This document shows positions 36,516 to 61,092 of a DNA stretch of 64,000 bases, in pieces (within the stretch, counting starts at the first letter, position 1; each line of letters opens with the position of its first letter). The notes below the pieces were generated by a model that saw nothing but the letters and a program-made list of their open reading frames with translations, did not search any database and was not told the origin of the DNA. The stretch comes from Hirsutella rhossiliensis (taxonomy: Eukaryota; Ascomycota; Sordariomycetes; Hypocreales; Ophiocordycipitaceae): NCBI RefSeq assembly GCF_020360975.1, contig NW_025408667.1:11160001-11224000 (forward strand). Direction: 5' to 3'. Both the position numbers and the translations under genes were made by a program.

Positions 36516-36810
36516 CAGAATAGCAACATTCAATAGGCAAGCAGCCGCCCGTCACGTTCACGCTGTCGGCGTCTCCATTACATTTACCTCGTAGGAGAGC
36601 AGACTACGCCCCCGATGTAGCAGCGATGTTTTAATGTCGGCTTGCCCACGTCATGCAGAACGGTGGCAAAAAAAAGAGTACCATCAGTGCATAGCTTATA
36701 TAACGAGCATCGAGTCCATTTTTAATGATATACGCAGAAAACAAATCCCCGCGTAGCGATTAGTATTTAGTTCTTCTGTCTATGTATCTGTTACGGGTTC
36801 TTTCAGGAGC

Positions 36811-39538: not shown

Positions 39539-39539
39539 G

Positions 39540-39650
39540 GTGTAAGGGGTGGGGCTACTCAGTCGACTGTCATGGATCATGGATTTAGGAACGCTGCTGT
39601 CAGGGATCATGGATTCAGGCTACTACCATGGATCATGGATTGAGGAACGC
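39540..39650. repeat. Short imperfect tandem repeat
   Basis: The motif atcatggatt(t/c)aggaacgct recurs three to four times (catggatcatggattt, gggatcatggattcagg, catggatcatggattgagg) right before the 1.7-kb repeat copy A. Confidence 0.6.
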
Positions 39651-39998
39651 TACGCTAGGCTCGAAAGGTTCAGCACGCTGGCCGGTCAGACAACCGCCTC
39701 TGACCTACATGTAGGCATTTTGGATGGATGCTGCAAGCCTTCACTTGCGGGAGTGTCACTGCGAGGCGCGGAATAGACGCATATAAGTAGCGAAGTAGCA
39801 ATATGAACCTAGATAATAGAGCCTTCTTATGATCCCACTCTCGAAGCAGTGGCAGTCACGCAGGATTTCCAAAGCCTGGGGCCTATTCACGAGGCACCCT
39901 CGCGGAGGAGATGTAACGAAGTGCAGGCACAGAGCCGCCTGCATGTCTCCTCCGAAGGGTGCCATTCTTCGGAACCGTGCTGTGGGGACAAACATGGC

Positions 39999-40005
39999 TA
40001 TAAAA
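39999..40005 (+). promoter_or_regulatory. TATA box of repeat-R gene, copy A
   Basis: tataaaa, 113 bases before the ATG at 40112; copy B has the same box at the same distance. Confidence 0.6.
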
Positions 40006-40111
40006 AGGAGGTCGGAGTGGTTAATTGTACGCGCAAGCTGTTCAATCCTCTCTCTAGTTTCAGAACTCTCTGCTATCTCCCTTAAGCGTTACTGCGTGCC
40101 TTGTGCCGGCC

Positions 40112-40559
40112 ATGTTTTATCCTCAGCGAGGCGCTGCGACTGGACAGCTACGTTCTGATCACCAGGGCCAGAAACGCAAAGGCGACCAAATCCAACATTT
40201 CGCCCCCCAGAGATCTCAACTAGACCAGGATGGGTTCCCACCAATCGACCTTCCCGGCTCCGCAAGTGCTTCCCACGACTGGCTCGGCCACCCACCACGT
40301 TCTACGCCTCATACGCGGGACCACGACCGAAGTTCCTTGGATATCCTGGCTGCCCTGAGTAGTGTCGCTTACGGAGGCCCCATAGGCTCAAGGTTTGCTA
40401 CCCCTACCCGCACCAGTTGCAACTGCTGACATTAATTGCAGCTCCGTCTCTCCCAATAGATCCTACCACGGCCCCGCAGACGACGGTGCGCAGTTCAGCG
40501 TCGAAATGTGCGTCGACCTTCCGAGAAGGCGACCTACGAGACTGACTAGCTACGACTAG
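40112..40559 (+). CDS. Repeat-R two-exon gene, 132 residues, copy A (unknown function)
   Basis: Exons 40112-40392 and 40442-40559 flank a 49-nt intron (donor GTTTGC, branch CTGAC, acceptor TTGCAG). The protein begins MFYPQRGAATGQ, is polar, and has blocks QGQKRK, LDQDGFPPIDLPGSASASH, AYGGPIGS, and an exon-2 tail GAQFSVEMCVDLPRRR ending LTSYD. No signal peptide or known domain. The copy in repeat B has exactly the same exon and intron lengths, no stop and no frameshift, although about 26 of 281 exon-1 bases differ. That is evidence for a real protein-coding unit carried by the repeat. Confidence 0.65.
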
Positions 40560-41420
40560 ACCTAAGAAACAATGGGCAGGGCAATATATTGAGTGGCAAG
40601 AGCGGTATGTCTTATCGCCGAAGCGAGTATACTGGATGCTAACGATGGCGATAGAGATACTCGAATTCAGAATTTGTCCGTACCCTGACCCGCGACTCTC
40701 GCAGAGTGTGTACATCTGGTCTATCGATTTCTAACTCAATATATAGGGAATACTTCATTAGAATATTGGCGCTCCAGGTCACTCGCTTGGCGACAAGACT
40801 AGCCGACGCCGACGGGTTTACCGCTGGGGAGAACGTAGTGCAGGGGGCATCTTAAGTGGTGGATCTGCTACATGTAGAGCAGGGGTCTTACTGGAGTAGA
40901 ACATGCTTTGCCCTCTCGACACACGAATCTGCCAATGTTCTTGAAGTCGCGGCGGCTTGGCTAGAGACGTTAGCACTTTGATTTTAGTATTAAGTCTTTT
41001 TCTCGGTTGGCAGTGGCAAAGTAGCTTGTTAGGAAGTCTTATAAGAGCAAACATTAATGCACTCCCTATAATTCCATACTCATGGCTTGCAGCTTATTCA
41101 ACTATTCGGTCTCTAGTAGGCGCCTGTTTTTATCACGGCGTTTAGCCAGATTCTTCTCTTAAGATGAGGATCTTCATTTTCAGACTAATATTGTTCTTCT
41201 CGTCTGCTGTTTATTGAGGCAGTCGTCCAGTGCCCGAATTAGTTTCGTATCGAGTACTGGTTGGCCGCACCGATGGTGTCCTACTTGAACACTGCGATCA
41301 TGGTCGTGGTAGTTACAAGAAGAACATAGTATACAGCTGCCTTGGACGTAGGCAGTCTCATTAATCGCGGCCAGAATGGGTGCACAGTCCTTCGTCAAAT
41401 CCTCGTGCATGATTACTGCA

Positions 41421-42664
41421 CTACATAACCCTATTATCCGCTATAGACATCCGTTTCTGCCTCTTTCTCTTCTGCACACCGGCCTGAATACGGGCCTTCC
41501 GCTTATTCCACTCTCTTATCAGCTGTGTCGCATTTCCCGCATCGTCTTCGGACACGAGACTTGGCTTCCACTCTATCATGTAGTGCAGCTTTCCACTAAT
41601 GCGCTCTTCGCCAATAATTCGGAGGGCTTCCCATTCTCCTGGTGGGGTCTCACCATCGGCGTCGTCTGCAGCCCTAATGTAGGCGGTATAGTCTCTTAAA
41701 TCCGGAGGCGGTGCAACTTCAATGCTGTCATGGACGTCTTCATCAGAAGCGGAATCACTAGTCTCCAAATTAGTCCTGCTGCTAAAGCTCCCATCGCGTA
41801 CGGCAAACTTGTCAGCCGCAGGTAGCCATGGAGACGACCGCCGGCTCGTCGGCTCGAGGTTTGCGGTTATATCTAGAGAGCCCTCTATACTGGGGATGCC
41901 CAAACTCTGGGAGTCGAGGGGGGCCTGGCGCCGCGGACTGGGATTGTGCCAGTTGTGCAAGCTAGATGAACCTTTTTTACTATACTCTCTAGGCGACGCG
42001 GTAGCGCCATTTTCTGACTTACGAGTTAGCCTCTTCCAGTACCCTTAATAAGCTTTGTGCCGTACTTCCTGTTTCCAACATTGACGCATTAACAGCGGCT
42101 GCCGGCGTAGCTTGGGCATGAGCTGCAGTTTTATGACATATTTCTTTGAGCGACGTAACATTTGAGCTCATGGCATCGACATCATGCCGTTCCGTATAGT
42201 AGATGGCCGGACGCGGTGATCGGATTACTGGAGAGAGTTGAGCACGCTCTTGAAACGGACTTGTTGCTCTAATCGTGGAAGGCCCGGTCCACGATACTTC
42301 CGGTGTCTGTTCCTCGAAGTCAGAGGTAATGATTTCTGCATCTGCCAAGTGTTAGCTACCCGGCCTTTGTGGCTCGAATAGGCAGAGCAGGACCTTTGCT
42401 GGTAGAATTCGCCTCTGTTTGAACTGTAATAGTAGACGGGCTTGGAGTAGGCACCTCCGAAACGCGCTGAGGGTCGGGATTCGAAGACTCTCCGCCACTG
42501 TTGACCATATCCGTGTATTTGGCGGAAAATGTGGTGCCGCAGCCGGTCCCGTGAGGGCTAACGAAAAAACGTTCGGTGGCTCTTCCAGCCTTCCCCTTGG
42601 CGCTTTTCTCTTTCAAGATTCTGTATGCATTGGCATCAAAGGGTTCGTGGAATCTGACGTTCAT
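41421..42664 (-). CDS. Chromodomain-like protein, three exons
   Basis: Exons 42664-42394, 42341-42023 and 41961-41421 with introns of 52 and 61 nt give 376 residues. Intron 1 has a weaker GTCCTG donor but an excellent GCTAAC branch; intron 2 starts GTAAGT. The N-terminal 280 residues are Ser/Thr/Pro-rich and probably disordered. Near the C-terminus EWEALRIIGEERISGKLHYM, IEWKPSLV and LIREWNKRKARIQA resemble the degenerate chromodomain found in many fungal proteins, followed by a basic tail (KRKRQKR) that may be a nuclear signal. It lies directly after repeat R copy A. Confidence 0.65.
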
Positions 42665-43600
42665 GTCGGAATCGAGCTGTATGTAGACGTAGATGAGGAA
42701 AGAGCAGGTGAGGCAATGGCATGGCGTTTATATATTTGCAGTTACCATGATCCCAGTCTTCAGCCTGTTAGACTAAGGGGGATAGACTACGTCTCTTATC
42801 CACTGAAGTAGCGATGTCACTGTTGTAATGAACGAGATGAAGCTGAGCGATTGTTCGGTAGATCACCGAGACTTCCTATCCAATGGCCGACACACAGGCG
42901 TCATCTTCCCCACTGGCCGTGAAACGCTTATTTTACGTGGATGCGGTCGATCCTCTTTTGGCGGCGACACAAGTCCAAGGACGCGGTGTTCCTCTGCTCT
43001 AGCCTGCTCTAGCGTCCACTTGCTGCAAGTCACGCATTAAATCGTATGCAATAACCGCTATAATACAAATCCTCCGTCCGATAAGCTCTGCAGCCTGTTC
43101 AACTTTTCTATGGCTACCAGGCACCTGAAATCGTATTTACTTATTGTAATTGATATAACTGGTAAGATTCTGTGGGTGGAGAACATTGGTGAGGATGGAA
43201 AAGCTCGTTTACGAGCCTCACTTACGAACACAGCCATCCCGTTAAAGACATATAGTTAAGGGGCATTATCGTACTGTGCCCATTACACTTGAGAGCTAAC
43301 ATTTAATTTTCGCTGAATTCTGTATGAACTCCTATGCTAAGTGAAGTAGTGAAGGCGGATTGGCTCGTTAAAGGGAGACAGACGGAAAGACAAAGACGGA
43401 AGAGGAGGAGTTCGGAGCGGGACAGCGAGGCCCGCGCTTACCATGACAAGTCTCCGTAGACAGTGCTTGAAATGAGAGGCTAAGTAAAGCTCGAGTATTT
43501 ACGAGTAGCACTGCGTTCTAGGAATCAACAGATATCGTGGACTCGTTTGACCGAGTACTCCCTACAGAGGCTATTCTTCAAGGGTTCGATGAACACTCCG
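42665..43600. other. Intergenic, nothing recognised
   Basis: Upstream of the chromodomain-like gene; small frames only. Confidence 0.35.
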
Positions 43601-44203
43601 CTATAGTAAAGCCCCATCCTTTATCAACCGCGAAACTGTGCGGCGATCTAATGAGAATCTTTCCCTCCGAATATCACTCCCTTCCCAAGCACCACCATGG
43701 AACTGCAGATCGAAAATATCTCCGGTTTTCCCCCGTACTTGCACCGAGAGGCTGTCGAGGCAAGCCATCAGTGACCTCATCGGCCAGGCATGCCGAGTTT
43801 GGTCTTCCCACAACTGGGATCGGACATCCCGCCGGAACGTAAAATCCACCCCAGACTTCAAATGCAGGATTGCTCCTACGGCCCGTAATGGCGTAGTTGT
43901 ATTGCACTGACGCTTTTGTGGTGTACTAGATTGCTGCATGGTTCTCTTCTGTGGTACAGCAGCATTATCGTCCGGGATAATGGGGCTGAGGTTTGCCGCG
44001 CCGGTAGCAGTTGGAGCTGAGAAATTATCAGTCGAGCTTCTAGTAATCTTAAAACTACCTCTGCTGCTCTCGTATTGTTTCGTTGGAGTGTTGGTTGGAA
44101 ACGTACTTATGTTGCTTCCGTCGCAGTCGCCCTGGCTAAGGAGGTCACTAGGGTCGCTGCCCCAATCTATTTCACCGTGGTCCCCATCGCGGTCGTCAGG
44201 CAT
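43601..44203 (-). CDS. Unknown 200-residue protein
   Basis: Open frame from ATG 44203. The N-terminal ~110 residues are acidic then Ser/Thr/Gln-rich with a basic pair (PQKRTMQ, TPQKRQC) suggesting a nuclear signal. The C-terminal 90 residues look globular (AILHLKSGVDFTFRRDVRSQ, LMACLDSLSVQVRGKTGD, ERFSLDRRTVSRLIKDGALL). No family recognised. The C-terminal third being ordered supports a true gene. Confidence 0.5.
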   Translation of the reverse strand: MPDDRDGDHGEIDWGSDPSDLLSQGDCDGSNISTFPTNTPTKQYESSRGSFKITRSSTDNFSAPTATGAANLSPIIPDDNAAVPQKRTMQQSSTPQKRQCNTTTPLRAVGAILHLKSGVDFTFRRDVRSQLWEDQTRHAWPMRSLMACLDSLSVQVRGKTGDIFDLQFHGGAWEGSDIRRERFSLDRRTVSRLIKDGALL

Positions 44204-45533
44204 GTTGAGAGTGGCTGTAGATTATTAAGGTGGCGAGTCACAAGATGTTGTCAAAGAAATTTCAAGGATCCGAAGACCTCGAGCAGATCTCTTAAACGTC
44301 GTAGAATCGTGCAGCTACTCGGCTCGGTGCTAACAGACCGGCCAAAGCTTGACCAACAAGTGGAATTCCGGGCCCCGCCGCTTTGCAAGGAGTCCGAGGC
44401 TAAGTCTGAGCTCCCTTGGCGGGCTTACAGTAGCATGAACTACTGAGCGGCCTGTAGTGCTTCTTACCGTAGTCTACGGCGCCTTATATGCATTTTTGGC
44501 TGTTGGTCTTCACTAATGGCCTAGAGCCAAGTAATGGATAGCCGAGACGTTCCAAGAGCGTTTGACCAATTGGCGACTTTGGCCCTCACTGTCCGCTTTG
44601 CCCCGTCTACAGATAAAGCGTCGTAGCGTCGCCCAACCTCGAACCCGGCTTTACGGTGCATAAATAGTCAACTAGCTCCGCATTTGGTCACGCCATGTCA
44701 TCAGTAGCGCTTCCTCGGCGCCACGTCCAGCCATTAAAAACCCGAGCACAGGCGACACGATATAAGGCTCCGTAATTTGCCCAAAGCTGAGCTAGCCGAA
44801 TCATACTCAGACATCTTCTCGCTCGGTATGTCGTAACCCAACGACATTCCGACGACAGAGTCTCACGAGGCTTTGCATCGCATTTTAACCCTGCTTGCCG
44901 CCGTTTCCGTTGCAGTATTGACACGGAATGGATCTTGTAGGCAGAAAAAGTCGGTCGATGCTTGTTCATGCCCTCTTGTGAGCTCGGTTACGGCTGCCAT
45001 ATTCGCAGCCATGAGCTCAGTTCCGTTGGTGTTCCACTCCAAACGCCAAGGCAATACTCCGAGTAAGGAGTCTGTAGACTTATAGTTCTCGGATTTTCTT
45101 GTAAATCTCTCCGTCATCGATTTTCTGGCGGCTACGTTCGTATGGTATTCAGTAAAACACAGGGAGGCCCTATACTTTCGCTTAGTGAATACGCAGTTTA
45201 TAGCCCTCCATGCGGGCATGATGATACTGGCAACTCAGGTCTGGCGCTTGGGGGTTCAATACACTCTACTCCGTAGCCGCGCAAGCGCAAAGAATCGCTA
45301 ACGGAGATATGCCCAGGTGGACGGTGTGGCCGTTCATTTGACAAGCAGTTTTCTCCACAAGCATACTGAGTAGACGCTATAATTTTATGCAGACGTGCTT
45401 TCAAGGGACTATGGTTGCATGGTCTACATTACTTTCTTTAGTCGCAGCAGCAGCGACGTCGTCATCCCACAAAGCTTTATCCTGCTTCATAGTTCAATGC
45501 CGCTTCATCGTCCACGGCTACTTTATTTATCCC
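44204..45533. other. Gene-poor stretch before the solo LTR
   Basis: A 118-codon minus-strand frame (44,863-45,219) has a faint similarity to a LINE endonuclease start but is not supported. Nothing else. Confidence 0.35.
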
Positions 45534-46037
45534 TTAACTGTCGAGAAGAAGGTCCGAACGAGTTGAGGTCTCTAGGTCTCTCTAGGTAATACAGCTTGAA
45601 ACCAGGTAAGGGAAGTCTGCAGACTGTTGTTTCTTCTTCCTAGACCACTGAGGGGTCCGGAGGATCTCCTATTCGAACGGGGACCCTTTGAGGAGTCCGG
45701 CATAACTATTACTGGCTCGGGGACCTCGAGAGACTGAACTATCGATTTCATAGCTAGAAGAGCTATTTGATCGGGGAGATGGAGCTGATGTTGCTGACGT
45801 AGATGACTTACGTGGCCTTCAGTAAGTGGCAAGAAGTGCCCTCTTCCTGATAGAATGTATACTATACCTGAAAACGGGATATCAACTTGGGAGAAGCGTG
45901 GAGGGATATAAAAGGGGCTGCTTGAACGGGGGAGGGAGAGATAAAAAAAAAACATCTGATCGGGTGATACTCGACCTTCAAAAAGTCCCTTTATCCACGT
46001 TTATGCCCGCTTTTGCTCTCTCCTTCGCGAGATTAAC
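45534..46037 (+). mobile_element. Solo LTR of the copia-2 family with target-site duplication
   Basis: The LTR spans 45539-46032 (494 bp, TGTCGAGAAGAAGG to TTCGCGAGA) and is flanked by ttaac at 45534-45538 and 46033-46037. It matches the LTR at 60598-61092 along its length. A lone LTR with a duplication is what remains after recombination between the two LTRs of a full element. Confidence 0.9.
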
Positions 46038-46164
46038 CTCTGCCCGAGTCCCCCAACACTGTTTGCAGAAAGTAACATTCCGCTAATATCTGCATCAAAT
46101 TATTCTTCTCATTATGGAACGCATGATCGGCAGACCGCTGAAAACGAGCTGCGCTCACTTACGC

Positions 46165-47034
46165 CTAACAGACTTGCCATTCCGTGCATGCCTTATAGGG
46201 ATTGCAGAGCATCTCGAACACCTCCCAGTACTTAATAAGGAGATTCATTTCCCCCAGCATATCCTGCCCTTCAAAGACCTCGCTCTTATCGTTCCATTGC
46301 AACGTTATGGGAAAGTGGCTGCCGCTGTTAATCTCAACTTCCAATGAAAGAATGTCCGTCATTAGCGCGAAATGAGCTCCCTCGAGCGTCGTGTCGGCAC
46401 CGATTGTGTCAGACCTCCAGTACCCTTCGGCAGGCTCTCTTGATCCTTTAAACGTATACTCATGGCTTCTGTCCCCGTGATTATGTCCCAGCCAAACCCG
46501 CAAGAGCTTGACTGTGTTCACTGCTTTCGCGGCTCCGCTCGTCCGCTCTGGGCCGGCCTTCCGAGGTCTTCCACCACTTCGGCGATGCGCGCGTGGTTCT
46601 TCATCCGGCAATCGCCCTAATGGCCCCTGTGGTAGTTGGTCTGGCCGCCGTTGGGCCGCCTGAGCTTCTAAGGCGCTGAGACGAGAGCTAATGGCGGCCA
46701 GCCGCCTTCGAATTCTGTTGAGCTCGTGGCAACATAGGTCGCTGATCTTGCGGTCCATCTTAGCAAAGAGCGTGGCACATGTGCAAGTAGTGCTTGCAGT
46801 GGCAGGTTCATTCGAGCCGCCATGATCGGTTCCATTGTCCGCTGGTATGCCCCAGGATTCAAAGACCTCGCTATGTAAGGCTAGTTCCTCCCAGCTAATG
46901 TGACCTTCAAGTAGAGAATCACTACCGGAGTCGTCGGTATTGGCTTCGTGAATATATGGCTGAAATTCTTGACCCTCTGTGTTTCGGGCTGACCAACTGG
47001 TAAGGCTGTCGTAGCCTGCTTGTTCCGCATTCAT
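46165..47034 (-). CDS. Unknown protein with coiled-coil and AT-hook-like motif
   Basis: 289 residues from ATG 47034, which has a good context (gcgccATG); an earlier in-frame ATG at 47079 is possible. The N-terminus is acidic. ELNRIRRRLAAISSRLSALE is a short coiled coil, RRSGGRPRKAGPE resembles an AT-hook, and the C-terminal 110 residues look globular (KLLRVWLGHNHGDRSHEYTF, DILSLEVEINSGSHFPITLQ). It may be a DNA-associated protein, but no family is recognised. It ends 127 bases after the solo LTR duplication. Confidence 0.55.
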   Translation of the reverse strand: MNAEQAGYDSLTSWSARNTEGQEFQPYIHEANTDDSGSDSLLEGHISWEELALHSEVFESWGIPADNGTDHGGSNEPATASTTCTCATLFAKMDRKISDLCCHELNRIRRRLAAISSRLSALEAQAAQRRPDQLPQGPLGRLPDEEPRAHRRSGGRPRKAGPERTSGAAKAVNTVKLLRVWLGHNHGDRSHEYTFKGSREPAEGYWRSDTIGADTTLEGAHFALMTDILSLEVEINSGSHFPITLQWNDKSEVFEGQDMLGEMNLLIKYWEVFEMLCNPYKACTEWQVC

Positions 47035-48880
47035 GGCGCTGTAGGGAAAAGTATAACGAAGGGAGAGGGTAAAGTACATATGGGGGATTAGAAGAGAGAG
47101 CCATGTGTAGCCGGGATGGGGCTCGTGGTCTTATAGGTAATATTCTCGCCCAAGTATATCATGTGATCCTATCTGGAGTTTCTAGATTCGGTATCGTGGA
47201 TCGCACAGTCTGCTGACATCGACTCACAGTAAACGACGTGCAGTGTCAGACAGTCCCGTCTGCTCCAACACAACAAGAAACATCCGCCCAGGTTAATCTC
47301 CTCCGCCTGGTGCGTTTAAGTACTATCGTGGCACACCTCGCGTTAGGCTGCGCCTTCTATGTCGCTATCTATACCTGAGCGGATCATTAGCTGGTAGCCC
47401 CTTACTTGCTTCCTGAAGTCTGTGAACGACTGGTCGGCCCGGCGAAATTCAGGCGTGGGCTTCGCCTGGCAAGCATCTGGGGCGAGATAGAATATAACAA
47501 AGAGACAATATACGCAGGAGAAATTTATTTATAGCTTGGTGAAAGAGTCTCTATGTGACTATCGGATAAGCTGTTGCCAGTCTATTACAGTTGCTGCATC
47601 GACATTGGATGGTGTGTTCTGCGCGAGGTCGGTCCCCATTGCCCACCCAGCGGACCCAATAGCACGCGTGCTAGCCTGCCTTCATGCCAGCAGCGAGACA
47701 CAAATCATTAGGGCCAACAAGTTTAGGCAACAAGTGATCGGTCAGCCCAGGGTAGCACGCACAATGAGCCGAATCTGCGGACATGCCCGTGGCCTTCCAG
47801 CACAGAACCAATTCCTATTAGTCTATCTACGCCTAATTATCAGTCCATTAACATCCTTAATAGTTATTCAGTGCTTATACCTCTAGCCGTATTGATTACG
47901 TCTAGTAAGTAGGCATGACAATAGGTCGCTGGAGGAGAAACGCCATCGTATACCAGCGGTTCATCTTACTTGTGCCTTGTAATACAGTACTGTAAAGCAC
48001 CAATATTGACGAGCTCGCGCTGATCCTACCGCTCATGTCCGCCTATCCACTTAGGGCTGCTTTCTAGAGATAGGCACCGGATTGGCAAGAAGCGAAAAAG
48101 CATTCTGGACATGCCCGGCCCACTGTTGTAAGGCCGATGTGGACATCTGCTGTGTCTAATCGTTATTTTTCACGTCGTTGCCAGCGTCCTTTGAGCTGCT
48201 GAATTGTCCGCTTCTTGACGAGCAGACCTCTGATGTGTAGCTGCCTGTCGCCTGGCGGTGGTAAATGCAAGTCCAAAATGGGCCACGGCAATATGACGCC
48301 ATGGGAGCACTTTCAGCGGACTCCGGCGGTCAAATTACGTAAAGCTTCGGGGGGCGAGGCCATTACAGTCGCGAAGATCCGGCCACCTACATCTACTTAT
48401 CCAGTTCAGGATATTTCCGGGAAACAGTAGGCAAAAGAGGACAGTCACCATTATGACTCACCTGCACCTCCTCCCCATACCAATTCAACCCCATCCCCCT
48501 GTCCCTAGCCTCGATTGTAGGCCATAAGCAGGACTTATCGTGGGGTCGATTTGCGGAGTAATTTCGGGAAATCGTATGCGATTACACATCTACCATCTGA
48601 TAAGTGCCCGGCGGCGCGCACGCGAATATCTCCACGGCCAGCAGCTCAATCGAGGCCATTCCGGGGCCTGGGGGACTACTACACTCCGGCGGCGCGTTTG
48701 GTCGAGGAGCACTCCGTATAGGCTGCTGTCCGTCGAGATATTTGCATTGCAGCGCCGCGAATGGGTAATGGGGGGCTAGGCTCGGCTACAGGAACTGCGA
48801 GATAGTAATGCACTGATCCTACGGCCCTTTGATCCTCAAAAATATGTCTAGTTACATGGATATAAATATGTATAAAGACT
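47035..48880. other. Intergenic, nothing recognised
   Basis: AT-rich, with several short frames and no motif. Composition changes abruptly near 48,880 to the GC-rich Crypton. Confidence 0.35.
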
Positions 48881-51426
48881 CTACGAGGCGGCTGGCTTAC
48901 GTCGACGAGGGGCGGTCCGCTTTCCCAGCCGGGTCCTCCGCCCCCGACGGCCCTGACCTCGAGTTGGACCTGGTCTCGGGCCTGGACCTGGGTCATCGGG
49001 CACGGGGGTCCCTACCTGTACCCGCATCTGGCCCTGGCCCTGGCCCCGATCCTGGCCCCGCCGTCGGCACTGTTTGAGCTCGTCGACGAGTCGGTTCAAG
49101 CTTCGGCCGGCGCGTAACAGCTCTAGCTCTGCAACGGCCGCCTCCTTGCATTTGCCGGACGCCATACGGGCCAACAGCTCGTCCCAGATCACCTTCCGAC
49201 GACAGAACTGCACTCTGACCCCGTTCCCCGGGCGCCAGCGGCTTCCCCACGTCTCTTCCAGCTCCCGTACGGCCTTCTGACCTGCAAACCCTTCCTCCCA
49301 CTCCTTCCAGACGTCCCCCACCGTAAAGACCCTTGCCAGGGCTGTGACGATAGGCATGCCTGGTACCAGAGGCTCTGGGGCGGGGGCCGGGGCCGGAGCT
49401 GTATTGAGATTCAAGGTAGGTACTGTTGACGGCGCCGGGGCCGGGGCCAGCGCCAGCGCCTCTGCTGACCCGGCTCCGAAGTAGCCGGTAAAGGTGATAG
49501 GGACCTTGCCTTGGAGGAGGGCATCGAGGCCGCCCTGAATCCCGTCCAGCCGGGCCTCAAGCCGGATGGCGAGCCGCTGACTATTCTGTAACAGGGCCTC
49601 CCGCGTGCACTCTATGACGCCGCTTAGTTCCGGCAGCGCGCGTCGTACGAGCAGGCTTACCGGCTCCATAGCCCCTACCGCGGTGGACCGCACGGCGACG
49701 GCGAACTCGTCCCACTCGGGCCCGCTAAAAGGGGCGTAGGCGAAGAACGGTAGCGACGGGTAGCGGAGCTGTAGGACGGCCAGGTCCTGCAGAAGTACTA
49801 TACGCAGGCGCCGCATAAGCTTAAGGAAGCCGTCAGCGGCTAGGTCGTCGTCGTCGAGACCGCCTTCTGCCCAGCATTGCCGGCGCGCGCGCGCCTCAAA
49901 GCGGGGTTCCCACTCCTCGATCCACGGCCACAGCTGCTTTTGTAAGACGTACGGGGGTTCGTGAGCCGCACGCGCGAGGAAGTAGTCCCCCGGGGAGGCC
50001 GAGAAGCCGGCGACGATCCGCATGAACTGCCGCGGTAGGTGCGTAAGATATGCCTGGCAGAGCACGCTCTGGTTCCAGCGGCCGGCCTGCGAGATCTGGG
50101 CGAGCGACGTGCCATGGGTCTCCGCGTCCTGGGCGCCCACCCTGCGCGGGAGGTGCGTCTTCTTCGACGCGATAAGGCCGGCAGCGCCGAAGATACGCCA
50201 GGTCTCTTGTAGCTGCGTCGGGTACGAGCTCCTGCTCGCGGTCCCGCCCGACGAGGACCTTGATCCGATACCAGTCCTGACGGCGCCGGAAGGACGGGGT
50301 GGTTCGCCGGCGACGTGCCAGCGCCAAAGAAGAGCTGTGCTAGGGCCCTTGAGTACAGAATAAGGGGTCCTTGTGCCGGAGCGCGCCCATAAACTCCTTC
50401 CTCGCCGTCTTATTTAGCTTGCCGTCCCGTAAAAGGCTTACCAGGCACCCACAGGGGTCGGGCCTCCGAAGGCGGATAGTCGAGTAGGGATAGGTCTGCA
50501 AGCTCCATCTTGCGGCGGTTCTCCCCGTAAGAGGTAGTAGTGGCCGAAGAGGAGGTCGACTCGCGTACGGAGGTTTTGCTGCGTATACGCGGCGCCAGTG
50601 AGAAGGAGATCCTGGATCCGAAGCCATTCATCGGGAGGTAGCCGGCCTGGATCCCGTCGCTTCCGCGGTCTTTAAAGGAGGCGCGGTCGTGCTTCCCCGC
50701 TGCCGGCCCCGTTGCTCAAGGAATCCTCGTACGGCGGCGCCCCGGGGATTCTCCGTATTCGCGTTGCCGTGAGCCACCTGGAGTCTCCATAGCTCGATAA
50801 CGGCCGCGATATAGGCGTCGATAGTGCCCCTCGTAAGCAAAGACCCTTCGGTAAGGTCTACTGCAGCCGTCGCGAGGCCTGTGGGTGGCACGTAGCCCTC
50901 GCGGTCGTCAGCGAGCAGCTCGGCGGCCTCGGCCAGGGGGACCTCCAAAGCTTCGGCCAGGCTTTCGGCCTCTGCCATGGCCGCGGCCTCGAGCTGCTCC
51001 TGCTCACGCTGTTGCCGTACCTGTACGGCCTCGCCGTTGCCGTTGCCCCTAACCTTACCCCGCGCGCGCGGCTTCTTCTTCTGCGGCGGCACAACGCGTC
51101 GTAACAGGATATCCTCTTTGAGCCACGCCGCCAGCTTGTCCGGCGTTACGAGCTCGCCGTCGGGCCAGCTATAGAGCGAGCCGTCTGCTGCAGCCCGAGG
51201 CGTATGGCACCAGGCCTATACGTATTTGTCTGTTAGCCGCCTAGGGCCGTACGTGACAGGGATCGAAGTGGAGGACCGGCCGGGGGACGCGCCTTCCACT
51301 CCCGCTGCTTCGCCGCGTAACTCCGCGCCGTGTTCGCCGGCTGTTCGTCCTTCTTCGCCTGGATGCCCGCCCTCCGGGCGGCACGGCGCGCTCGTCAGCT
51401 GCCGTGTACGAGTCGTCCGCGGCCAT
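48881..51426 (-). pseudogene. Crypton-type tyrosine recombinase, GC-rich, frameshifted (copy 2)
   Basis: Same architecture as copy 1 but a distinct subfamily. Exon 1 from ATG 51426 ends at 51293 with ARSYAAKQREWK; a 77-nt GC-AG intron (51292-51216) leads to AWCHTPRAAADGSLYSWPDG. The N-terminal helical domain follows (TRGTIDAYIAAVIELWRLQ). Ndc10_II/recombinase blocks are YTQQNLRTRVDLLFGHYYLL (Arg), KEFMGALRHKDPLFCTQG, RRRQDWYRIKVLVGRD, KKTHLPRR (H-x-x-R), ISQAGRWNQSV and QAYLTHLPRQFMRI. An Ala/Pro-rich linker precedes GCR1_C at ~49,310-49,150 (LEETWGSRWRPG, CRRKVIWDELL). At least four one-base shifts, near 51,365, 50,690, 50,610, 50,470 and 50,235, break the frame. The longest intact part is 50,140-48,881 (419 codons). 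It is much more GC-rich than its surroundings. Confidence 0.82.
51216..51292 (-). other. GC-AG intron in Crypton copy 2
   Basis: Exon end AAG followed by GCGCGT, a GGCTAAC branch site and acceptor GTATAG; 77 nt, phase 0, placed right after the QREWK motif. Only this join connects the two conserved blocks in frame. Confidence 0.65.
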
Positions 51427-51624
51427 CTCGGTCGATCGGGCAACCTTCCTACGGGGCGAATGTCTGGGCTGGGTTGGCCGGAAACCCGATAAGTCGGGTG
51501 GGAACTTATCAAATGCACTTATCAGGCGTCCTGCACACGATTTCACGGGCGGCGTTTTGCGGGCGATAAGTGGTCACGTGGTCTAAGTGAATTACGACGC
51601 AATTGCGGGCACCACCGATAAGCA

Positions 51625-51880
51625 GCTTACCAATGTCACGTATGCCATGTTCGCAATTCGTACCCTTGAAGCAGCTGATCACTCTTAGGGACGTACTTGG
51701 ATACCAGCATATCTGTAACGCGCCAGTTACTACGACAGCTCGAGGCCCGTGGCGTCTAACCCCGTCAGGGAGCTTTCCCAGTAGCCACGTGAATTATACG
51801 TGGCTTCTAACCGCTTCAGGGGGCTTTCCCAGTAGCCAAGTGGATTATACCGCTTCATGGCCATCCATTGCCCACCTACC
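51625..51880 (+). repeat. Inverted dispersed repeat, arm 2 (partner 31840-32090)
   Basis: Reverse-complement match to 31,840-32,090 with the same pair of 51-bp units. It is followed by two more imperfect units starting cgaggtgcctctgcacctt (~51,895 and ~51,967), spaced about 72 bp. Confidence 0.75.
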
Positions 51881-52450
51881 GTTAGCTCGTGTCCCGAGGT
51901 GCCTCTGCACCTTGATGGAGCTAAAGGCGCTTCGGCTCTCACGACTGTCCAGAACTCGTTTCCTGCGAGGTGCCTCTGCACCTTGCGAGAGCCCATAAGT
52001 GCTTCGGCCATTACCGCAGTCCAGGAGCTCATGCCCTGCGGAGAGCTGCCATGCCCTGCCGGAGCTAATGCCCTTCTGCGAGGGTTTATACCTGCCAGGA
52101 GCTTTCATGCCCTGCTGGTGCTTAGACCCTAGCCTCCGGTGAGCACACCGGATGCTGCCTCGCAAAGCAGCAGGACGAAGCAGCAGACCTTCACGTGGTG
52201 TCCGGTGTCAGTAGCTGCGATGCTTCCCTTCACACGACTGGCGGTGTGGTCTTGAGTGGATGCCTAGCTGCGGACGGTTGAAGCCGCCGCGCTGAATACA
52301 TAACCTGATCTCATCGCCTGTTTACTGAGCGGAGCGCATTGTCGGTGAAGCCAACATGCTGCAATATAGATTCAAGTTGATTTCTGGCTCTCGGGCCTTC
52401 TGCGGCTCTGGGTAAGTCTGCCGCCAGGTTAGACTGCGTCTGCCGACCAA
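51881..52450. other. Spacer with imperfect tandem units
   Basis: Contains the two ~72-bp units noted for the repeat arm. No gene. Confidence 0.4.
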
Positions 52451-52681
52451 AATAGCAAAACACAGATCGCTCTCGAGTATGCCTACCGCCGGAGCCGCGA
52501 CCCGGCCTGCTCAGTGTTCTGGGTCCACACCGACAATGAGACGACATTTACGCAGGACTACAAGGTTATTGCGAAGAGGCTGGGCCTGGCGGGCAGTCTG
52601 GATGGGTAGGAGCTGCTGACGGCCGTACGCGAGCGAATCGAGACGGACCCGTGCTGGCTGCTCATTCTCGACAACGCGGAA
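52451..52681 (+). pseudogene. NB-ARC (NLR) fragment
   Basis: One frame reads a nucleotide-binding domain: a damaged P-loop (NSKTQIALEYAYRRSRDP, normally GxGKTQ), SVFWVHTDNETTFTQDY, and a Walker B-like WLLILDNAE. A TAG at 52607-52609 interrupts it and similarity ends after Walker B. No sensor effector domain or repeats are attached, so it is a relic of a NOD-like receptor gene. NLR genes are frequent in fungal accessory DNA. Confidence 0.7.
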
Positions 52682-52718
52682 ACACCACGCCGTCGTCGTC
52701 GTCGTCGCACCGTACGGC

Positions 52719-53042
52719 GTGGCACAGTGGAACACATCTTTTCAGGACGAAACGAGGGCTGTGGCGGAAGCTTATGGCAAAGCGCAATTGCCACCGCGGG
52801 TGCCCACCGGCACTGGATCACGGGGCGGATTGGTACAGACGCCGTTGCCGTTCAAGGCAACGAAGCCGGCACAGGACGCAGTGGAGGGGCCAAGGCGCGG
52901 GCCGCCTCAACGTGGCAGGCCGAAGATTCGATGGGCCCCGAAATGTGTTTACAAGAGGCCGGCCATTATACCCCACCACTTCTTTGACCGGCTAGGCCGG
53001 TGCCGGGACACGACGGGCAGTCTTGGTTGGCTCTGCTGCTAA
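52719..53042 (+). CDS. Hypothetical 107-residue basic protein
   Basis: MAQWNTSFQDETRAVAEAYG, then a Pro/Arg-rich middle with QRGRPKIRW, reminiscent of an AT-hook. No family recognised. It lies just after the NB-ARC relic and may be noise. Confidence 0.25.
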   Translation: MAQWNTSFQDETRAVAEAYGKAQLPPRVPTGTGSRGGLVQTPLPFKATKPAQDAVEGPRRGPPQRGRPKIRWAPKCVYKRPAIIPHHFFDRLGRCRDTTGSLGWLCC

Positions 53043-54728
53043 TCGTGGGCCTCGATGGGGCGTGGAAGCAGAGAGGTTGATGATTCCAAGCAGGCATCTG
53101 GCGAACGCGCCAAGAGCGCACAGGGCGCTAGCGCCTTCTGCCTGGTCCGGCTCGCGGGCAGAGGCGGGACTAGGCAGACCGCCTACAAACACGAGCGCTG
53201 TGCGTTTGCGGGCCCTCCCTGCGAGTGCTGAGGTGGGAGACGTGGGGTCTCGGAGACGCTTGCGAGAAAATGGCCAGGGATCAAAACTTGCGTCGCCAAA
53301 CAGCGTCCTTCCCGGGCGCACTTCAGCGACAATACGTACTCTCCTCGCGAGAATAGAGGGCTAGCCTATTGTACACGTTATGCGACGATTCGAAACCCAA
53401 AACGTGAAATACATGGACCTATTGTCCGGATATCCGCTCGTTGCACTATTGTTGTTCACCCATTTATCACCCAGAGTGGCCCTTACTCATTCCGACCTGC
53501 TGCGGCCGTATGACCTCCCACCGCGGCCTCCTCGTCCGATGCCTCCGAAATTGACGAAAGTACTGGGAGAGTAAGAGGGAACACCGCCGCCCTCGCAGTC
53601 CAAGACGACCCTGGACCCAGCGACTGGATGCTCGGAATACTCGTGAGTGCTGGCCCCACTCGAGTACACTGTACAACTCGTTAGGCAGTACACTGACGTA
53701 TGGGGCTGTGCGCACCTACTCTTGGTTCGCGTCGGAGCAACTTCAATCGTTCAAGCCTGGAAGCCCGTTCATGCCAGTCAGGATGGGGAGCTGGTGCCGT
53801 GGCATCGGAGGCCGTTGGTGGGGCCGCCGGGCCGGAAGACCTGCCATTGCGGGGCCCAGCTTCAATTTTCAAAAGACTGGGAAATGGGAATTAACGCCGG
53901 TATTTCGGATTCCTGTCAGATCGAGGTTGGGCATATGCTGGGCTGGCGACAGCGATGATAAAAGTCGAAGCCAATAGCATACAACTAGCGCATCACCTAC
54001 GGTCGAAATGCTCGAGTCTCAATAAGTCGAGGTATTTCGTATTAAGGTTTCTGTCAAAATTGGTCTCGCCTGTTCTAGCGATGGACTGAGTTGCGTTGGT
54101 TGGTTGTATTCCGGGTGATCCAGTGCCGTGGTTGCGTTGCGCACTCGTTGCATGGGTGCTGTGCAACCAGAAGCTGGGTTAACAGTTAACACGTCGTCGC
54201 GACGTCGCCAGGATAGTGCCAAATCAAAGATAAGAAGAAGGGGAAGAGACGGTGGGAGACGCGGGTCTCGAAGCCGTTTGTGAGAAAAATGACTAGGAGC
54301 CAAAACTTGCATTGCCAGCGTCCCGTTCGAGTTGTTGTTGGTTAAGGTCTTGCCATAGCCTTGAAGCTTCTATCCGTAATTGTGATGTCAGACTGCACGT
54401 CTTACCTAGCGCAGAACTAGCATTTTTTCGGGAGTTCCAAATAAATATGGGGCGCGGCACACACGAAGTCCGTTATGCAAACTAAATAAGCTGCATGCAC
54501 GATCGGGAATTGCATGGAGTTGACTCCGGCATATCCAACCAACGGGAGACTAGGGGCCAATACGTGAATTCGAGGGCCAAAGACAAGAGTATCACAAGGA
54601 ATCATTAGCCCAGCTGATACCGCGAACGGCCTAACGCAGTACATTTGGTCTAAACTCTTTCGGGTAATTGCTGCCTCTGTATAGTCCAGCCCTGCCTTCG
54701 CGCTAGCCTAGTTTTCATCGACCGAAAA
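53043..54728. other. Gene-poor stretch with a short direct repeat
   Basis: A ~80-bp block (tgggagacgtggggtctcgg...caaaacttgcgtcgccaa at ~53,232-53,312) recurs in the same orientation at ~54,247-54,330. The stretch between has no supported gene. Confidence 0.45.
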
Positions 54729-54737
54729 CATTGAAAC

Positions 54738-54855
54738 GAGTAATCAAACATGCACTCCTGATTTTCAAACATGCACTCCGACTTAAACCCCATTTGGAAG
54801 AGAGCCCCACCAAAATTTGGCGCGGCGCGTTCCCAACGCCGTGGCCGCCGCGGCT
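54738..54855 (+). repeat. Left terminal inverted repeat of the MULE
   Basis: 118 bp; no mismatch to the right repeat was seen. Confidence 0.92.
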
Positions 54856-54991
54856 TGCCGCCGGCGCCCGAGGCCACCTCTGCACACACGTTCGTTCGTT
54901 TTGAAGCCATCGTTTTGAAGCTATCACCAACTATTCAGCACACCACACCAACGCCGCCACCGCCGCCGCCGCCTACCGCACAACCGTCACG

Positions 54992-55315
54992 ATGAATTCG
55001 ACCGATCGCAACATGAATACAAACAGACGATGCCCTCACTTCCACAGGCGCCGCCGGGCTCACAGGGGGTACTACGTAATGCCACCGCCTACAACACATG
55101 TGCCTGTATACACACAGGCGCCGCCGGCGGCATCGTACGTCTACCCGATGCCACCTACGCCCTCACAGTGGCAGCAGGGGCCGCCCCCCTCGGCACAGGG
55201 ACATCACGATAGCTGCCTGTGGGCACAGCCGCCGGTACAGTCGCAAGGGACGGCAAGGGAGCCTGCCCGACAGCCAGGGGATCAGAGGGGACACGGCGCC
55301 ATACAATTTTGGTAG
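54992..55315 (+). CDS. Proline-rich open frame inside the MULE
   Basis: 107 codons (MNSTDRNMNTNRRCPHFHRR, then PPPTTHVPVYTQAPPAASYV, PTPSQWQQGPPPSAQGHH). The end QFW* is directly followed in another frame by RQAGHTFVPYVPRPPPRQTD with the same composition, so a one-base shift or a short intron (GTAGGC at the end) may extend it to ~55,415. The 5' part of the element is a (CCG)n-rich leader. It may be captured host sequence, as in Pack-MULEs. Confidence 0.45.
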   Translation: MNSTDRNMNTNRRCPHFHRRRRAHRGYYVMPPPTTHVPVYTQAPPAASYVYPMPPTPSQWQQGPPPSAQGHHDSCLWAQPPVQSQGTAREPARQPGDQRGHGAIQFW

Positions 55316-55579
55316 GCAGGCCGGGCATACGTTCGTCCCTTACGTGCCTCGTCCTCCGCCGCGTCAGACGGATCAGACGGATCCTACGGATCCTCCGGCA
55401 CCGTCACAGTCATAGTCACGGCGTTGATTGATCTCACGGGCGGTAGTCAAAGGTGTGCACATTGTATATATATCGGAAAATAGGTCGGGCCGGGCGTATT
55501 GATATATTTGAACGACTCCAAGGAACGCAGCTTCCAGCGTTGGTGATAATTAAATGCTGATTGAATGCGACCGGGCGGC

Positions 55580-55697
55580 AGCCGCGGCGGCCACGGCGTT
55601 GGGAACGCGCCGCGCCAAATTTTGGTGGGGCTCTCTTCCAAATGGGGTTTAAGTCGGAGTGCATGTTTGAAAATCAGGAGTGCATGTTTGATTACTC
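55580..55697 (-). repeat. Right terminal inverted repeat of the MULE
   Basis: Perfect reverse complement of 54738-54855. Confidence 0.92.
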
Positions 55698-55706
55698 CAT
55701 TGAAAC

Positions 55707-56101
55707 GTCTCCTATGTACCGATCCGCCCAGTGTGACGTTGCACAGTTAATTTGAAACCTCGATGATAAAATGGTCGGGAACATTCTCTTGCAGCAAGCG
55801 GATGCTGTGCTGGCAGCTGACAAAGATCAAAAATTCGTGAACGTCGGGCACAGCCATATAATGACAAGTGTTAGGTTATTTAGCCCCGCAGACCCAGTGC
55901 TTCCATGCGGCAGCCATAATCCACTTGCAAGTCGATCAACATCCAAATGTCGATCGCGCTAGGGGCCTAGGCTGCAGAAGAAGGTTTGACTGTGATGATG
56001 GCGGGTGACAGCAAGGTGAGCATTCACTGTCATGACTGAATAGTCGCAACAAAAAAAGCTTTGGTCTAAAGACCCGAAAAATCAGTCCACCACCTCCTCA
56101 A
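55707..56101. other. Intergenic
   Basis: Between the MULE and the RING-H2 gene; should contain the latter's promoter. Nothing else recognised. Confidence 0.4.
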
Positions 56102-56706
56102 ATGGCTACCAACTCATCCACTTCTGCTGAGGACAACCCTTCATCGGCGCTTCCTAGGTTCATAATAATCGGCACTGGGGCCCTCGTCGTGTCGCTGGTG
56201 GCTTTGTTCTTGATTCTACGGTGTGTTTGTCCTCCATCGGGCTCAGTAATTTCGCAGTTTGATCCGCTGTGGCGGTAGGTGTTGATGTCCAGGCAGGTAT
56301 TGCATAGGTAGCCCGACTACGCAGCAAGACGCCGACGACGATGCAGAGGCTGTGGGGGCGCCAAGGGACATCAAGAAACTTGATGCAGTCGCATCCACCA
56401 AAACATATGGAAAATTGAAAAGCGACATCCAAGACTTTGCCAATCCACCTCGCTATTATACAAGCACCATCGTCTGGTGAGTTAAACCGCCCTTTTTTCG
56501 GGGTCAAGCAGCCAGGCTGATATGCCAAAAACGAATCGCGCAGTGCCATTTGCTTGGAAAATTTACAAGACGTCGACGTGATCCGACAGCTATGTTGTGG
56601 TCATATATTCCACGCGGAGTGTATACAGAAATGGTTCCTGAAGCAACATAGCATCTGCCCATTGTGTAAATCATGCTTTATGAGCGGAGCGCATACCGTC
56701 AACTGA
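56102..56706 (+). CDS. Membrane-anchored RING-H2 protein (putative E3 ubiquitin ligase), three exons
   Basis: Exons 56102-56245, 56325-56476 and 56544-56706 with introns of 79 and 67 nt give 152 residues. After a short polar N-terminus there is one transmembrane helix (FIIIGTGALVVSLVALFLIL), then an acidic linker (QDADDDAEAVGA), and a RING-H2 finger of C3H2C3 type: C-A-I-C, L-C-C-G-H-I-F-H-A-E-C, C-P-L-C. The first Cys codon is split TG|T by intron 2, so single-exon reading misses the whole domain. Small single-pass RING-H2 proteins (ATL-like) ubiquitinate membrane or secretory-pathway substrates; the target here is unknown. Confidence 0.8.
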
Positions 56707-58355
56707 CCATCCGAAGCCGACAAGAGTCTCCAAATCCTTCTGGTCCAATGCAAAGCTGAGATGCTTACTGGGCAGTTGGACAAATAGCTTTTCTGGGGGG
56801 GGCCGAGAGGCATCACCCCTTGGACAAATGATAAGACCAGGCAAAGCTGGCTGACATTGGACTGCATCGGCTACGGAATCAAAACTCCGATTTCTGGTGA
56901 CCTGGGAAAGGCGGCTGCTATGCAATCTAAACATGTGATGCTGTTGGAGGACTCCAGCCGGATCTAGAAGGTTCCATGGATACGGCGACTCCATCGCCTG
57001 AGTCTATATAGACCCGGATCATCATCACATCTGTAGCTAGACAGGCAGGCATCAATAGATCGTTGTCTCATCCTTTCCAGTCCGCAGGTGCGGACAACAG
57101 ATGCCATGCACCTGACGCGGGCGATGCTCCAGACCATGCCAAGCGGTGGTGTTGGTGGTGGCCTGCATGCACCCATGATTGGATCGTGCCTCTGCACCAT
57201 CATGCGGCACTCGTCAGGCCAACAGTGCAGGTAGCAAGTAGCTCACCGAAGGAAAAGCTATACAAGTATGCTGGCCGTGCGTCCTGATTTTGCGAGGTTT
57301 GTGAGTCCCTTCTAAACCGATGTTGAGGGCAACACTGGCGTGGCCTGCTGCTACGTTGGAGTGACGGTGCTGAGGGTAATGTTATCGACGAGCAGGCGCC
57401 TAGCCTGGGGCAAGCGATTCGCCCGTAATGGCAGACTGATGGACCTGGACAAAGACATCCCGTTTACGCAGCCGTTCTTCCCGTAGTAACTCACGGAGCC
57501 CGCATTCGGCATATACGCCGCTTCTATGTCTAACCGGCTTTCTTCTCTTGCTCCGCAGAACTTGGTCGCCCGGCGTAACGAATGAGGTGACCCACCGGGG
57601 GTTGCTCTGCATTCTAGTGTACAGGTCTAGGGGACTTGCGATAAATAATCAGACCTTTATGTAGTAAATCAGGCTGTCAGGCCATTCTCGCTAGTGCGTG
57701 GCAGCACTTTTGCTAGTCGTCACGGTCTCGCCCTTGCGTTCTAGGTTTCATGTCAATAGCGGCCTGCAGGAAGAGAAAAAGTACCAGCCGAGACCGGACG
57801 CGACGACTTGACGAATCCATGAGCAGATCGTGGTGTGATGCTCCGGAAGTAGCCGAATTTCAAGCTCTCTGCCGAATAGTTCAGTTCTTCTTCCCGTGGC
57901 AGATTCTGCAAAGCCAGTAAAGTACTCCGCTATGCTCCAAATTCGCGCCGTATCTGTAGATCCACATCTCTTTGATCTTTGTACCGACGACCCTTTTGTT
58001 ACGAAGTCTCATTTTGGCACCCAAAAGTCGTTTGCCGCCGTGCCAGATATTCTCCCAATCAATGCCAAATTCCCATTGTGAAGCATCTGTCTCGTCTGCT
58101 CTGGCCTTGGACGTGGCAGGAGTAGCCTCATGACTGTCATTAACTGGGGTGGGGTGGGGTGTGGGCGGGATGCAAATGACTGCGGTACAGACGACACGGG
58201 GCTGGTATCCCTACTAGAAGACATAATGACGCGGTATGATACACAGTAGCTCGTAGATGGATGGGAAGACGCGGAAGTTGGGCAATGTATACGCGTAGGT
58301 AACTTATTGTTATTCTCCAAGGGGTCGATGGTCCAGTCTATCTCCTTGAATCGAA
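56707..58355. other. Gene-poor stretch
   Basis: Short frames only, for example 58,009-58,224 minus (MSSSRDTSPVSSVPQ) and 57,400-57,612 minus. None has a motif. A G-rich patch (ggggtggggtgtggg) lies at ~58,147. Confidence 0.35.
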
Positions 58356-58674
58356 TCAGACAACCGCCCCTGACCTACATGTAGGCATTTTGGATGGATG
58401 CTGCGAGCCTTCACTTGCTGGAGCGTCATTGTGATGCGTGGAATTAACGCATATAAGTAACGAAGCAGTGATATAAGCCTAGGCAATAGAGCGTTCCCAT
58501 GATCCCATGCTCGAAGCAGTGGCAGTCGCGCAGGATTTCCAAAGCCTGGGGGCTGTTCGCGAGACAACATCGCAGAGGGGATATAACAAAGTGCGGGCGC
58601 AGGGCCGTCTGCATGTCTTCTCCGACGGCGAAGGGTGTCATTCTTCGGAACCGCGCTGTGGGGACAAACATGGC

Positions 58675-58681
58675 TATAAAA
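58675..58681 (+). promoter_or_regulatory. TATA box of repeat-R gene, copy B
   Basis: tataaaa, 113 bases before the ATG at 58788, as in copy A. Confidence 0.6.
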
Positions 58682-58787
58682 GGGAGGTCGGAGCGGTTAG
58701 CTGTGCGCGCAGGCTGTTCAATCCTCTCTCTGGTGTCAGGACTCTGTGCTATCTTCCTTGAGCATTACTCCGTGCCCTGTGTCGGCC

Positions 58788-59235
58788 ATGTTTTATCCTC
58801 AGCAAGGCGCTGCGATTGGACGGCTACGGTCGAACCGCCAGGGCCAGAAACGCAAAAGCGACCAAGTCCAACATTTTGTCCCCCAGAGATCTCACCTAGA
58901 CCAAGATGGGTTCCCACCAATCGACCTTCCCGGCTCCGCAAGTGCTTCCCACGGCTGGCCTGGCCATCCACCACGTTCTATGCCGCATACGCGGGACCAC
59001 GACCGGCGTTCCTCGGATATCCTCGCTGCCCTCAGTAGGGTGGCCTACGGAGGCCCCATAGGCTCAAGGTTTGCTACCTCTACTGATACCAGCTGCAACT
59101 GCTAACATCGATTGCAGCTCTGTCTCTCCCAATAGAGCCTACCAGGGCCTCGCAGACGGCGGTGCGCAGTTCAGCGTCGAAATGTGCGTCGACCTTCCGA
59201 GAAGGCGAGGTACGAGACTAACTAGCTACGACTAG
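58788..59235 (+). CDS. Repeat-R two-exon gene, 132 residues, copy B (unknown function)
   Basis: Exons 58788-59068 and 59118-59235 with a 49-nt intron, identical in all lengths to copy A. The protein starts MFYPQQGAAIGR and shares QGQKRK, LDQDGFPPIDLPGSASASH, AYGGPIGS and the tail GAQFSVEMCVDLPRRR. About 15 residues of exon 1 differ from copy A, with about 11 silent changes. No known domain. Confidence 0.65.
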
Positions 59236-59476
59236 ACCGAAGGAACAATGGGCAGGGCAATATAATGGGTGGCAAGAGGGGTATGTCTCATCGCCGAAGT
59301 GAGTACACTGGGTGCTGATGATTGGCGATAGAGACACCCGAATCCAGAATTTGTACGTACCATGATCCCACGATCCTCGCAGAGTGTGTGTGTCTGTCGA
59401 TTTCTAACTCAATCCATAGGGAACGCTTCATTAGGTTACTGGCGCTCCAGGTCACTCACTTGACGGCAAGGCTAGC

Positions 59477-59690
59477 CTTTCACGCGCCTAAAGTGCTTGA
59501 CCCATGTAGATGGCTGGTTGATTCCAACCACTGGCTGGAGTGACTTCTCAGGGAAAAGTACAGGGCTGGGAGGCATCTCGTGGTTATAAAAGTAGGGTTG
59601 CATAGCCCCTGATGGAGCTCGTCAGAGATCAATGAATTGAATGATTGACCCCGTTCCTCACTCTCTGTCTAGTTGTGTGCGCCTTACAGC
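59477..59690. other. Extra block in repeat R copy B
   Basis: About 214 bases absent from copy A, bordered on both sides by agcc (ctagcc|tttcacg ... ttacagcc|gacgcc). It is either an insertion or sequence lost from copy A between the two agcc repeats. Confidence 0.55.
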
Positions 59691-60252
59691 CGACGCCGAC
59701 GGGTTTACCGCTGGGGAGAACGCAGTGCAGGGGGCATCGTAAGTGCTGGTTCTGTTACATATAGAACAGGGATCTTACTTGAAGTAGAACGGGCTTTGCC
59801 CTCTCGTCACATGGATCAGCTAATGTTCTTGAAGACGCGGCGGCTCGGCAGGAGACGTCAGCACTGTGATTTTAGTACTGAGTCGTTTCCCCGGGCTTCA
59901 TTGGCAAAGTAGCTTGTTAGGAAGTCTTATAAGAGCTAACATCAATACACTCCCTATAATTGTACACTCATAGCTACAGCTTATTCAACTTTTCGGTTTT
60001 CCAAGAGGCGCCTTTACATATCACTGCGTCAAGCCAGATTCTTCTGTCGAGGCGAAGATCGTCGTTTTCGGACCAATATTGTTCTTCTCGTCTACCTTTT
60101 ATTGATGCAGTCGTCTGGTGCCCGAATCAGTTTCGTATCGAGAACTGGTGAACCGCACCGATGGTTTTTCACTTAAACACTGCGATCATAATCATGGTGA
60201 CTTCAAGAAGAATATAGCGTACTGCAGGCAGTCTCATCAATCTCGGCCAGAA

Positions 60253-60597
60253 CGACTGCCAACGAATCGTGGACATGGTTTGCAATGGTTTGGAGCAATT
60301 AGCCGATTGGTATTCCTAGCATCTCTGATGCTACTGTCTTTGGCGGCAAGGCCCGGCACAGGATAATCGACCGGGCAGTTAATGCTTTACGACGCTGAAA
60401 TAGAGCGTCTGTAGTTACTGTTATTTGCCACCGTGTTTTGATACAGGGCTCGCGTCGTTGTATTGGGTCCTGGTGCTCCAAACCACCGATGGTAGCGATA
60501 GAGGACACAGAAGTTCGTCGAGAGTACGGACATAGCCAGTTTGTCCATATGCAATCGACTTCGTGTCAGATTATGTCGTATATTCCTGCATCATTGA
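60253..60597. other. Spacer between repeat R copy B and copia 2
   Basis: No supported gene. The element starts right after attga. Confidence 0.4.
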
Positions 60598-61092
60598 TGT
60601 CGAGAAGAAGGTCCGAACGAAGTGAGGCCTCTAGGTTTCTCTAGGTAATACAGCTCGAAGCCAGGTAAGGAGGGAGGTTTGTGGTCCACTGCGGGGTCCG
60701 GAGCATCTCCTATTCGAACGGGATCTCCCAAGGAGTCCGGTATCTCTTTTACTGGCTCGGGGACCTCACGAGACTGAACTATCGACCTATAGCTCGGAAA
60801 GCTGTTGATCGGGGAGATGGAGCTGAATGTGCTGACGTAGATGACTTACGTGGCCTTCAGTAAGAGGCAAGAAGTGCCCTCTTCCTGATAGAATGTATAC
60901 TATACCTGAAAACGGGATATTAACTTAGGGAGGCATTGAGGGATATAAAAAGGGAGGGTTGGACGGATAATGGGCAACGGAGGAGAGGAATCAACACATG
61001 CGTTACACACACCCTCTGATCGTATGATACTCGACCCTCGAAAAGTCCCATTATCCACGTTTATGCCCACTTTTGCACTCTCCTTCGCGACA
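60598..61092 (+). repeat. 5' LTR of copia element 2
   Basis: 495 bp from TGTCGAGAAGAAGG to TTCGCGACA, matching the solo LTR at 45,539. It shares its first 14 bases with the copia-1 LTR but is otherwise different. The primer site GTTATGAGCCCGGGAG follows. Confidence 0.88.

Follow-up and report, generated by a model that had tools for sequence, protein, structure and literature searches.

Hirsutella rhossiliensis is a nematode-parasitic fungus. The window—the whole 64,000-nucleotide stretch of its DNA that was analysed—lies on contig C1 of the 81.8-Mb, 40-contig assembly used for the genome searches. It contains two copies, A and B, of a repeat that features an intact small gene adjoining a broken, unrelated gene (Table 1). 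The small gene had been described in an initial annotation of the window as a two-exon gene of 132 residues kept without indels in two copies, with identical exon lengths (281 and 118), a 49-nt intron, and a TATA box at the same distance of 113 bp. These features are found as described, and the spliced frame of 132 codons is free of stops upon translation of both window copies. The differences in exon 1 likewise create no stop, although they amount to 28 of 281 positions instead of the roughly 26 given there. Both window copies are real, and the count of two has to be extended by a third intact one, copy C, elsewhere on contig C1.

Table 1. Positions of the repeat copies, the small gene, and the adjoining relic (window coordinates unless preceded by C1).
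Feature	Position	Strand	Remarks
Repeat copy A	39686..41376	+	stretch common to B and C
TATA box, copy A	39999..40005	+	starts 113 bp upstream of ATG
Exon 1, copy A	40112..40392	+	281 nt
Intron, copy A	40393..40441	+	49 nt, GT-AG; splicing predicted from the sequence and the same model in P0002
Exon 2, copy A	40442..40559	+	118 nt including stop
Relic of putative membrane-protein gene, copy A	40981..41376 (limits approximate)	+	stops, frame changes
Repeat copy B	58356..60252	+	stretch common with A
TATA box, copy B	58675..58681	+	starts 113 bp upstream of ATG
Exon 1, copy B	58788..59068	+	281 nt
Intron, copy B	59069..59117	+	49 nt, GT-AG
Exon 2, copy B	59118..59235	+	118 nt
Dispersed repeat, about 213 bp	59477..59689 (limits approximate)	.	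inserted in copy B only; the 0.2-kb block
Relic of the same gene, copy B	59948..60336	+	84 bp past the stretch common with A
Repeat copy C, third intact copy	C1:10911666-10913569	minus	DNA search with copy A and protein search

Between A and B, the repeat is 87% identical to the left of a 0.2-kb block and 82% identical to the right of it. Besides the exon 1 differences, the gene has 8 mismatches over the 118 positions of exon 2 and 9 over the 49 of the intron. Indels are absent from the gene, whereas nine are found in the flanks (one in the 5′ part, eight in the 3′ part)—a contrast already drawn in the initial annotation. The 0.2-kb block reported there is indeed present; its nature is that of a dispersed repeat inserted in B, with at least 40 matches in the genome, B included (best 40 of 79 candidates scored). 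Further dispersed repeats flank B closely, at window positions 57883–58297 (ending 58 bp before B) and at about 60447–60592.

The window carries other features around these copies. Positions 45539–46030 and 60598–61090 form a pair of repeats of about 500 bp that are 80% identical; they are probably LTRs since the second directly precedes an ORF (61238–62371) that is Copia gag-like by eye. An open frame of 510 aa on the minus strand (48881–50413) contains the domains NDC10_II and GCR1_C. Its DNA recurs nearly full length at 96–98% identity at no fewer than 21 other places (best 40 of 264 candidates scored) and is, as judged by sequence, a recently active repeat, presumably Crypton-like by domain content. 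An ORF on the minus strand at 12824–14221 matches DUF3723 (E = 1e-48).

Copy C lies 0.29 Mb away, is 94% identical to A, and features the same exon and intron lengths, the same 113 bp between TATA box and ATG, and an intact frame. A, B, and C all keep their splice borders, the lengths of both exons, and the spacing of the promoter, and the gene is intact in all three copies found. Within the hit covering exon 1 of C, the genome search flagged one TGA and one TAA; that hit extends past the exon, and C translates without a stop once spliced. The initial annotation had proposed to count the copies in the genome and had held that stops and frameshifts in additional ones would speak against its reading. 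The count yields three, and the sole further copy, C, is free of such damage. Because the searches score top-ranking candidates and pass over very common words, the number is to be read as at least three. On contig C1, all three copies fall in the interval 10.91–11.22 Mb, i.e., within 0.31 Mb.

Copies A and C are part of an inverted duplication that exceeds 9 kb, in which window positions 35261–44564 match C1:10908699-10918241. The identity of this block is 88–98% per 250-bp tile over 36000–44499, and A and C are homologous far past both edges of the repeat. Parts of the block recur at C1:10997165-10999154 and C1:11327027-11331122, where they stop at the equivalents of window positions 39558 and 39305; a gene copy was not found at either place. 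At both stops (L059 and L060), the block is replaced by the same sequence, identical over 291–294 bp and then diverging, as a very recent insertion or exchange might leave it. For A and C, the most economical account is the duplication of segments later broken by repeats. The homology of B to A is limited to 39686–41376 (about 1.7 kb), and extended homologous surroundings were not found for B. Copy B, too, would have arisen via segment duplication, and its route is less settled because of the short stretch shared with A.

The right part of the repeat shows a DNA identity of 70–73% to three loci (L005, L006, and L007), and at the protein level, the match of this relic spreads over more than one frame or runs through stops in each of the three copies. 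The relic is a decayed member of a much-multiplied Hirsutella family that includes HIM_10854, HIM_11546, and HIM_09830 (putative membrane protein). This family is unrelated to the 132-residue protein and has open members elsewhere in the genome. A member spliced from L025 features long hydrophobic stretches by eye and gives 157 exon-level matches in the genome. The family includes loci L021, L022, L023, L024, and L025; many members are open, and the relatives listed are three from Hirsutella minnesotensis and one unnamed. Other members carry 10–20 TAG or TAA stops and are RIP-like in look. The differences between A and B bear no strong RIP mark: C/T differences stand before A in 21 of 82 cases and A/G differences after T in 20 of 80. 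L022 and L024 share two more downstream stretches, one of them bZIP-like by eye and unconfirmed by Pfam.

A small self-mobile unit had been suggested in the initial annotation; the 1.7-kb repeat would then be self-mobile or mobilised, with the 132-residue gene as its own gene. This reading can draw on the sharply bounded stretch that A and B share amid otherwise unrelated surroundings. However, the three copies found all sit on one contig arm, A and C within a larger duplicate, and dispersed copies with constant ends, as for a transposable element, were not found among these three within 0.31 Mb. A relic of another gene makes up the right part of the repeat; in B, the homology to that family passes the edge shared with A by 84 bp. 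Some transposable elements have no terminal inverted repeats; here, neither A nor B has its two ends joined by such a pair of at least 10 nt. The 132-residue protein, in addition, has no domain. The suggestion of mobility is thus unsupported, and a mobile unit is very improbable.

The protein of copy C is identical in 132 of 132 residues to the database entry P0002, the hypothetical protein HRG_012262 of H. rhossiliensis; an annotation pipeline has thus chosen the same gene model. P0002, which represents two member sequences clustered at 90%, shares 121 of 132 residues with copy A and 106 of 132 with copy B. It is the only protein match at E ≤ 1 among 29 candidates, and relatives outside the lineage were not detected in this search. 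The protein of copy B is absent among the database matches listed, so that no annotation pipeline is known to predict its gene. When another sequence of this genome served as a control query, three H. minnesotensis proteins and one unnamed protein were matched, and no H. rhossiliensis protein; hence, the database set of H. rhossiliensis may be incomplete. No Pfam family was assigned at E ≤ 0.1, and a literature search on this gene or the tag HRG_012262 found nothing. AlphaFold2 run on P0002 alone yields a mean pLDDT of 54.3 and a pTM of 0.12, and the model contains no helix of four or more residues. With its basic patch (KRK) and missing fold, the protein could, as a guess, be an intracellular disordered binding protein.

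The repeat itself is certainly beyond chance; the spliced ORF of 132 codons alone is less so. Among 300 random sequences of matched neighbour statistics, 16 contain a spliced ORF of at least 132 codons on one strand or the other (8/300 forward and 8/300 reverse, which shows that the scan detects models in either orientation). Within the window, 18 of 37 tiles of 1.7 kb contain one, these tiles including real genes and repeats. On the reverse strand, neither A nor B yields a model. In copy A, the scan prefers a chance model of 182 aa over the one of 132 aa, and copy B has an ORF of 179 aa in another frame over exon 1. The frequency in random sequences and the lack of relatives elsewhere among the 29 protein candidates favour the view that the ORF is no functional gene—a chance or formerly coding frame that would still be open because the copies are young. 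On the other side stand the three intact copies with their conserved promoter distance, splice borders, and exon lengths.

Selection tests bear on the same question. The dN/dS ratio, which the initial annotation had proposed to compute over all copies, is 0.42–0.65 for the three pairs of A, B, and C by three methods. The variable columns among A, B, and C—those with a gap in any copy being dropped—number 48 of 399 in the exons, 12 of 49 in the intron, 67 of 426 in the 5′ flank, and 152 of 787 in the 3′ flank. The exons are less variable than both flanks together (48/399 versus 219/1213, Fisher p = 0.005) and than the 3′ flank (p = 0.001), which argues for a gene; compared with the 5′ flank alone, their variability is not clearly lower (p = 0.13), as a noncoding frame would have it. 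Neutral simulation under the flank spectrum yields as few non-synonymous changes as observed, or fewer, in 8–20% of runs (P 0.08–0.20); the shortage is not significant. At the rate and spectrum of the flanks, the start, splice sites, and frame survive in 1.6–4.5% of simulations for the four ordered pairs with B. For A/C, the gene survives in 20–25% of runs, and this pair alone is uninformative. The simulated pairs overlap in their sequences and are not independent of one another.

The differences at codon positions 1, 2, and 3 amount to 6, 12, and 18 for A/B; 4, 7, and 9 for A/C; and 9, 15, and 18 for B/C. Third positions in the lead fit constraint; second positions exceeding first ones are unusual under constraint and count toward a frame without function. 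All four other open frames compared in the block of A have a stop or frameshift in C, none of them being a proven gene. The selected unit of the initial annotation is plausible but weak, with dN/dS and the three intact copies in its favour and the non-significant shortage of non-synonymous changes against it. Constraint on the 132-residue frame, as judged by these comparisons, is somewhat more probable than its absence and is not established. A frame without function is a serious contender of clearly lower probability than the gene.

The 132-residue gene might also be the shortened remnant of a longer gene, with another frame reading on after the intron. This alternative frame is interrupted by a single stop, located identically in A, B, and C, after which a protein-like open stretch ends at a second intron-like segment (GTATGT...TAG). 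However, a genome search with this frame turned up, besides the three copies, one match, with E = 0.87 (four of four candidates scored), the stretch after the stop varies between the copies, and no relative was found in the protein database, with none of 172 candidates at E ≤ 10. A longer ancestral gene is, therefore, unlikely.

The reading preferred here is that of a H. rhossiliensis orphan gene present in three intact copies via segmental duplication and perhaps mildly constrained, to which we assign a probability of roughly 0.55. Its observed base is a spliceable ORF that remains intact in all three copies, the same gene model in a public annotation, and the duplicated surroundings of A and C. 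The gene would consist of a TATA promoter, two exons with one 49-nt intron, and a 132-residue protein without predicted fold. The three copies would owe their existence to duplications of segments in one repeat-rich part of contig C1: B would have split first from the lineage of A and C (flanks 13–17% different), and A later from C (5–7% different), inside the inverted duplicate. The gene is predicted to be transcribed, spliced, and translated, and mild purifying selection may keep its frame open.

A bolder version of this orphan-gene reading can be offered tentatively, as a rather doubtful one: the gene would be of recent birth or evolve very fast, and its three duplicates, which differ in age, would all have remained functional in a place where neighbouring frames decay and where a family related by neighbourhood carries many RIP-like stops elsewhere in the genome. 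If real, the gene would be a compact test case for the persistence of species-restricted genes after segment duplication in repeat-rich DNA. The three copies would represent two ages, and the decayed gene next to each would provide a built-in comparison. The locus holds no pointer to a new kind of mobile element.

Compared with known sequences, HRG_012262 shows no difference from copy C, and A and B are diverged copies of it. Species-specific genes located in repeat-rich regions and lacking a Pfam domain are described for H. minnesotensis in PMC4255773. Unlike these, the 132-residue protein has no relative listed in H. minnesotensis, although proteins of that species are in the database. In other respects it resembles them: it is species-restricted, it has no Pfam domain, and its gene lies in repeat-rich DNA.
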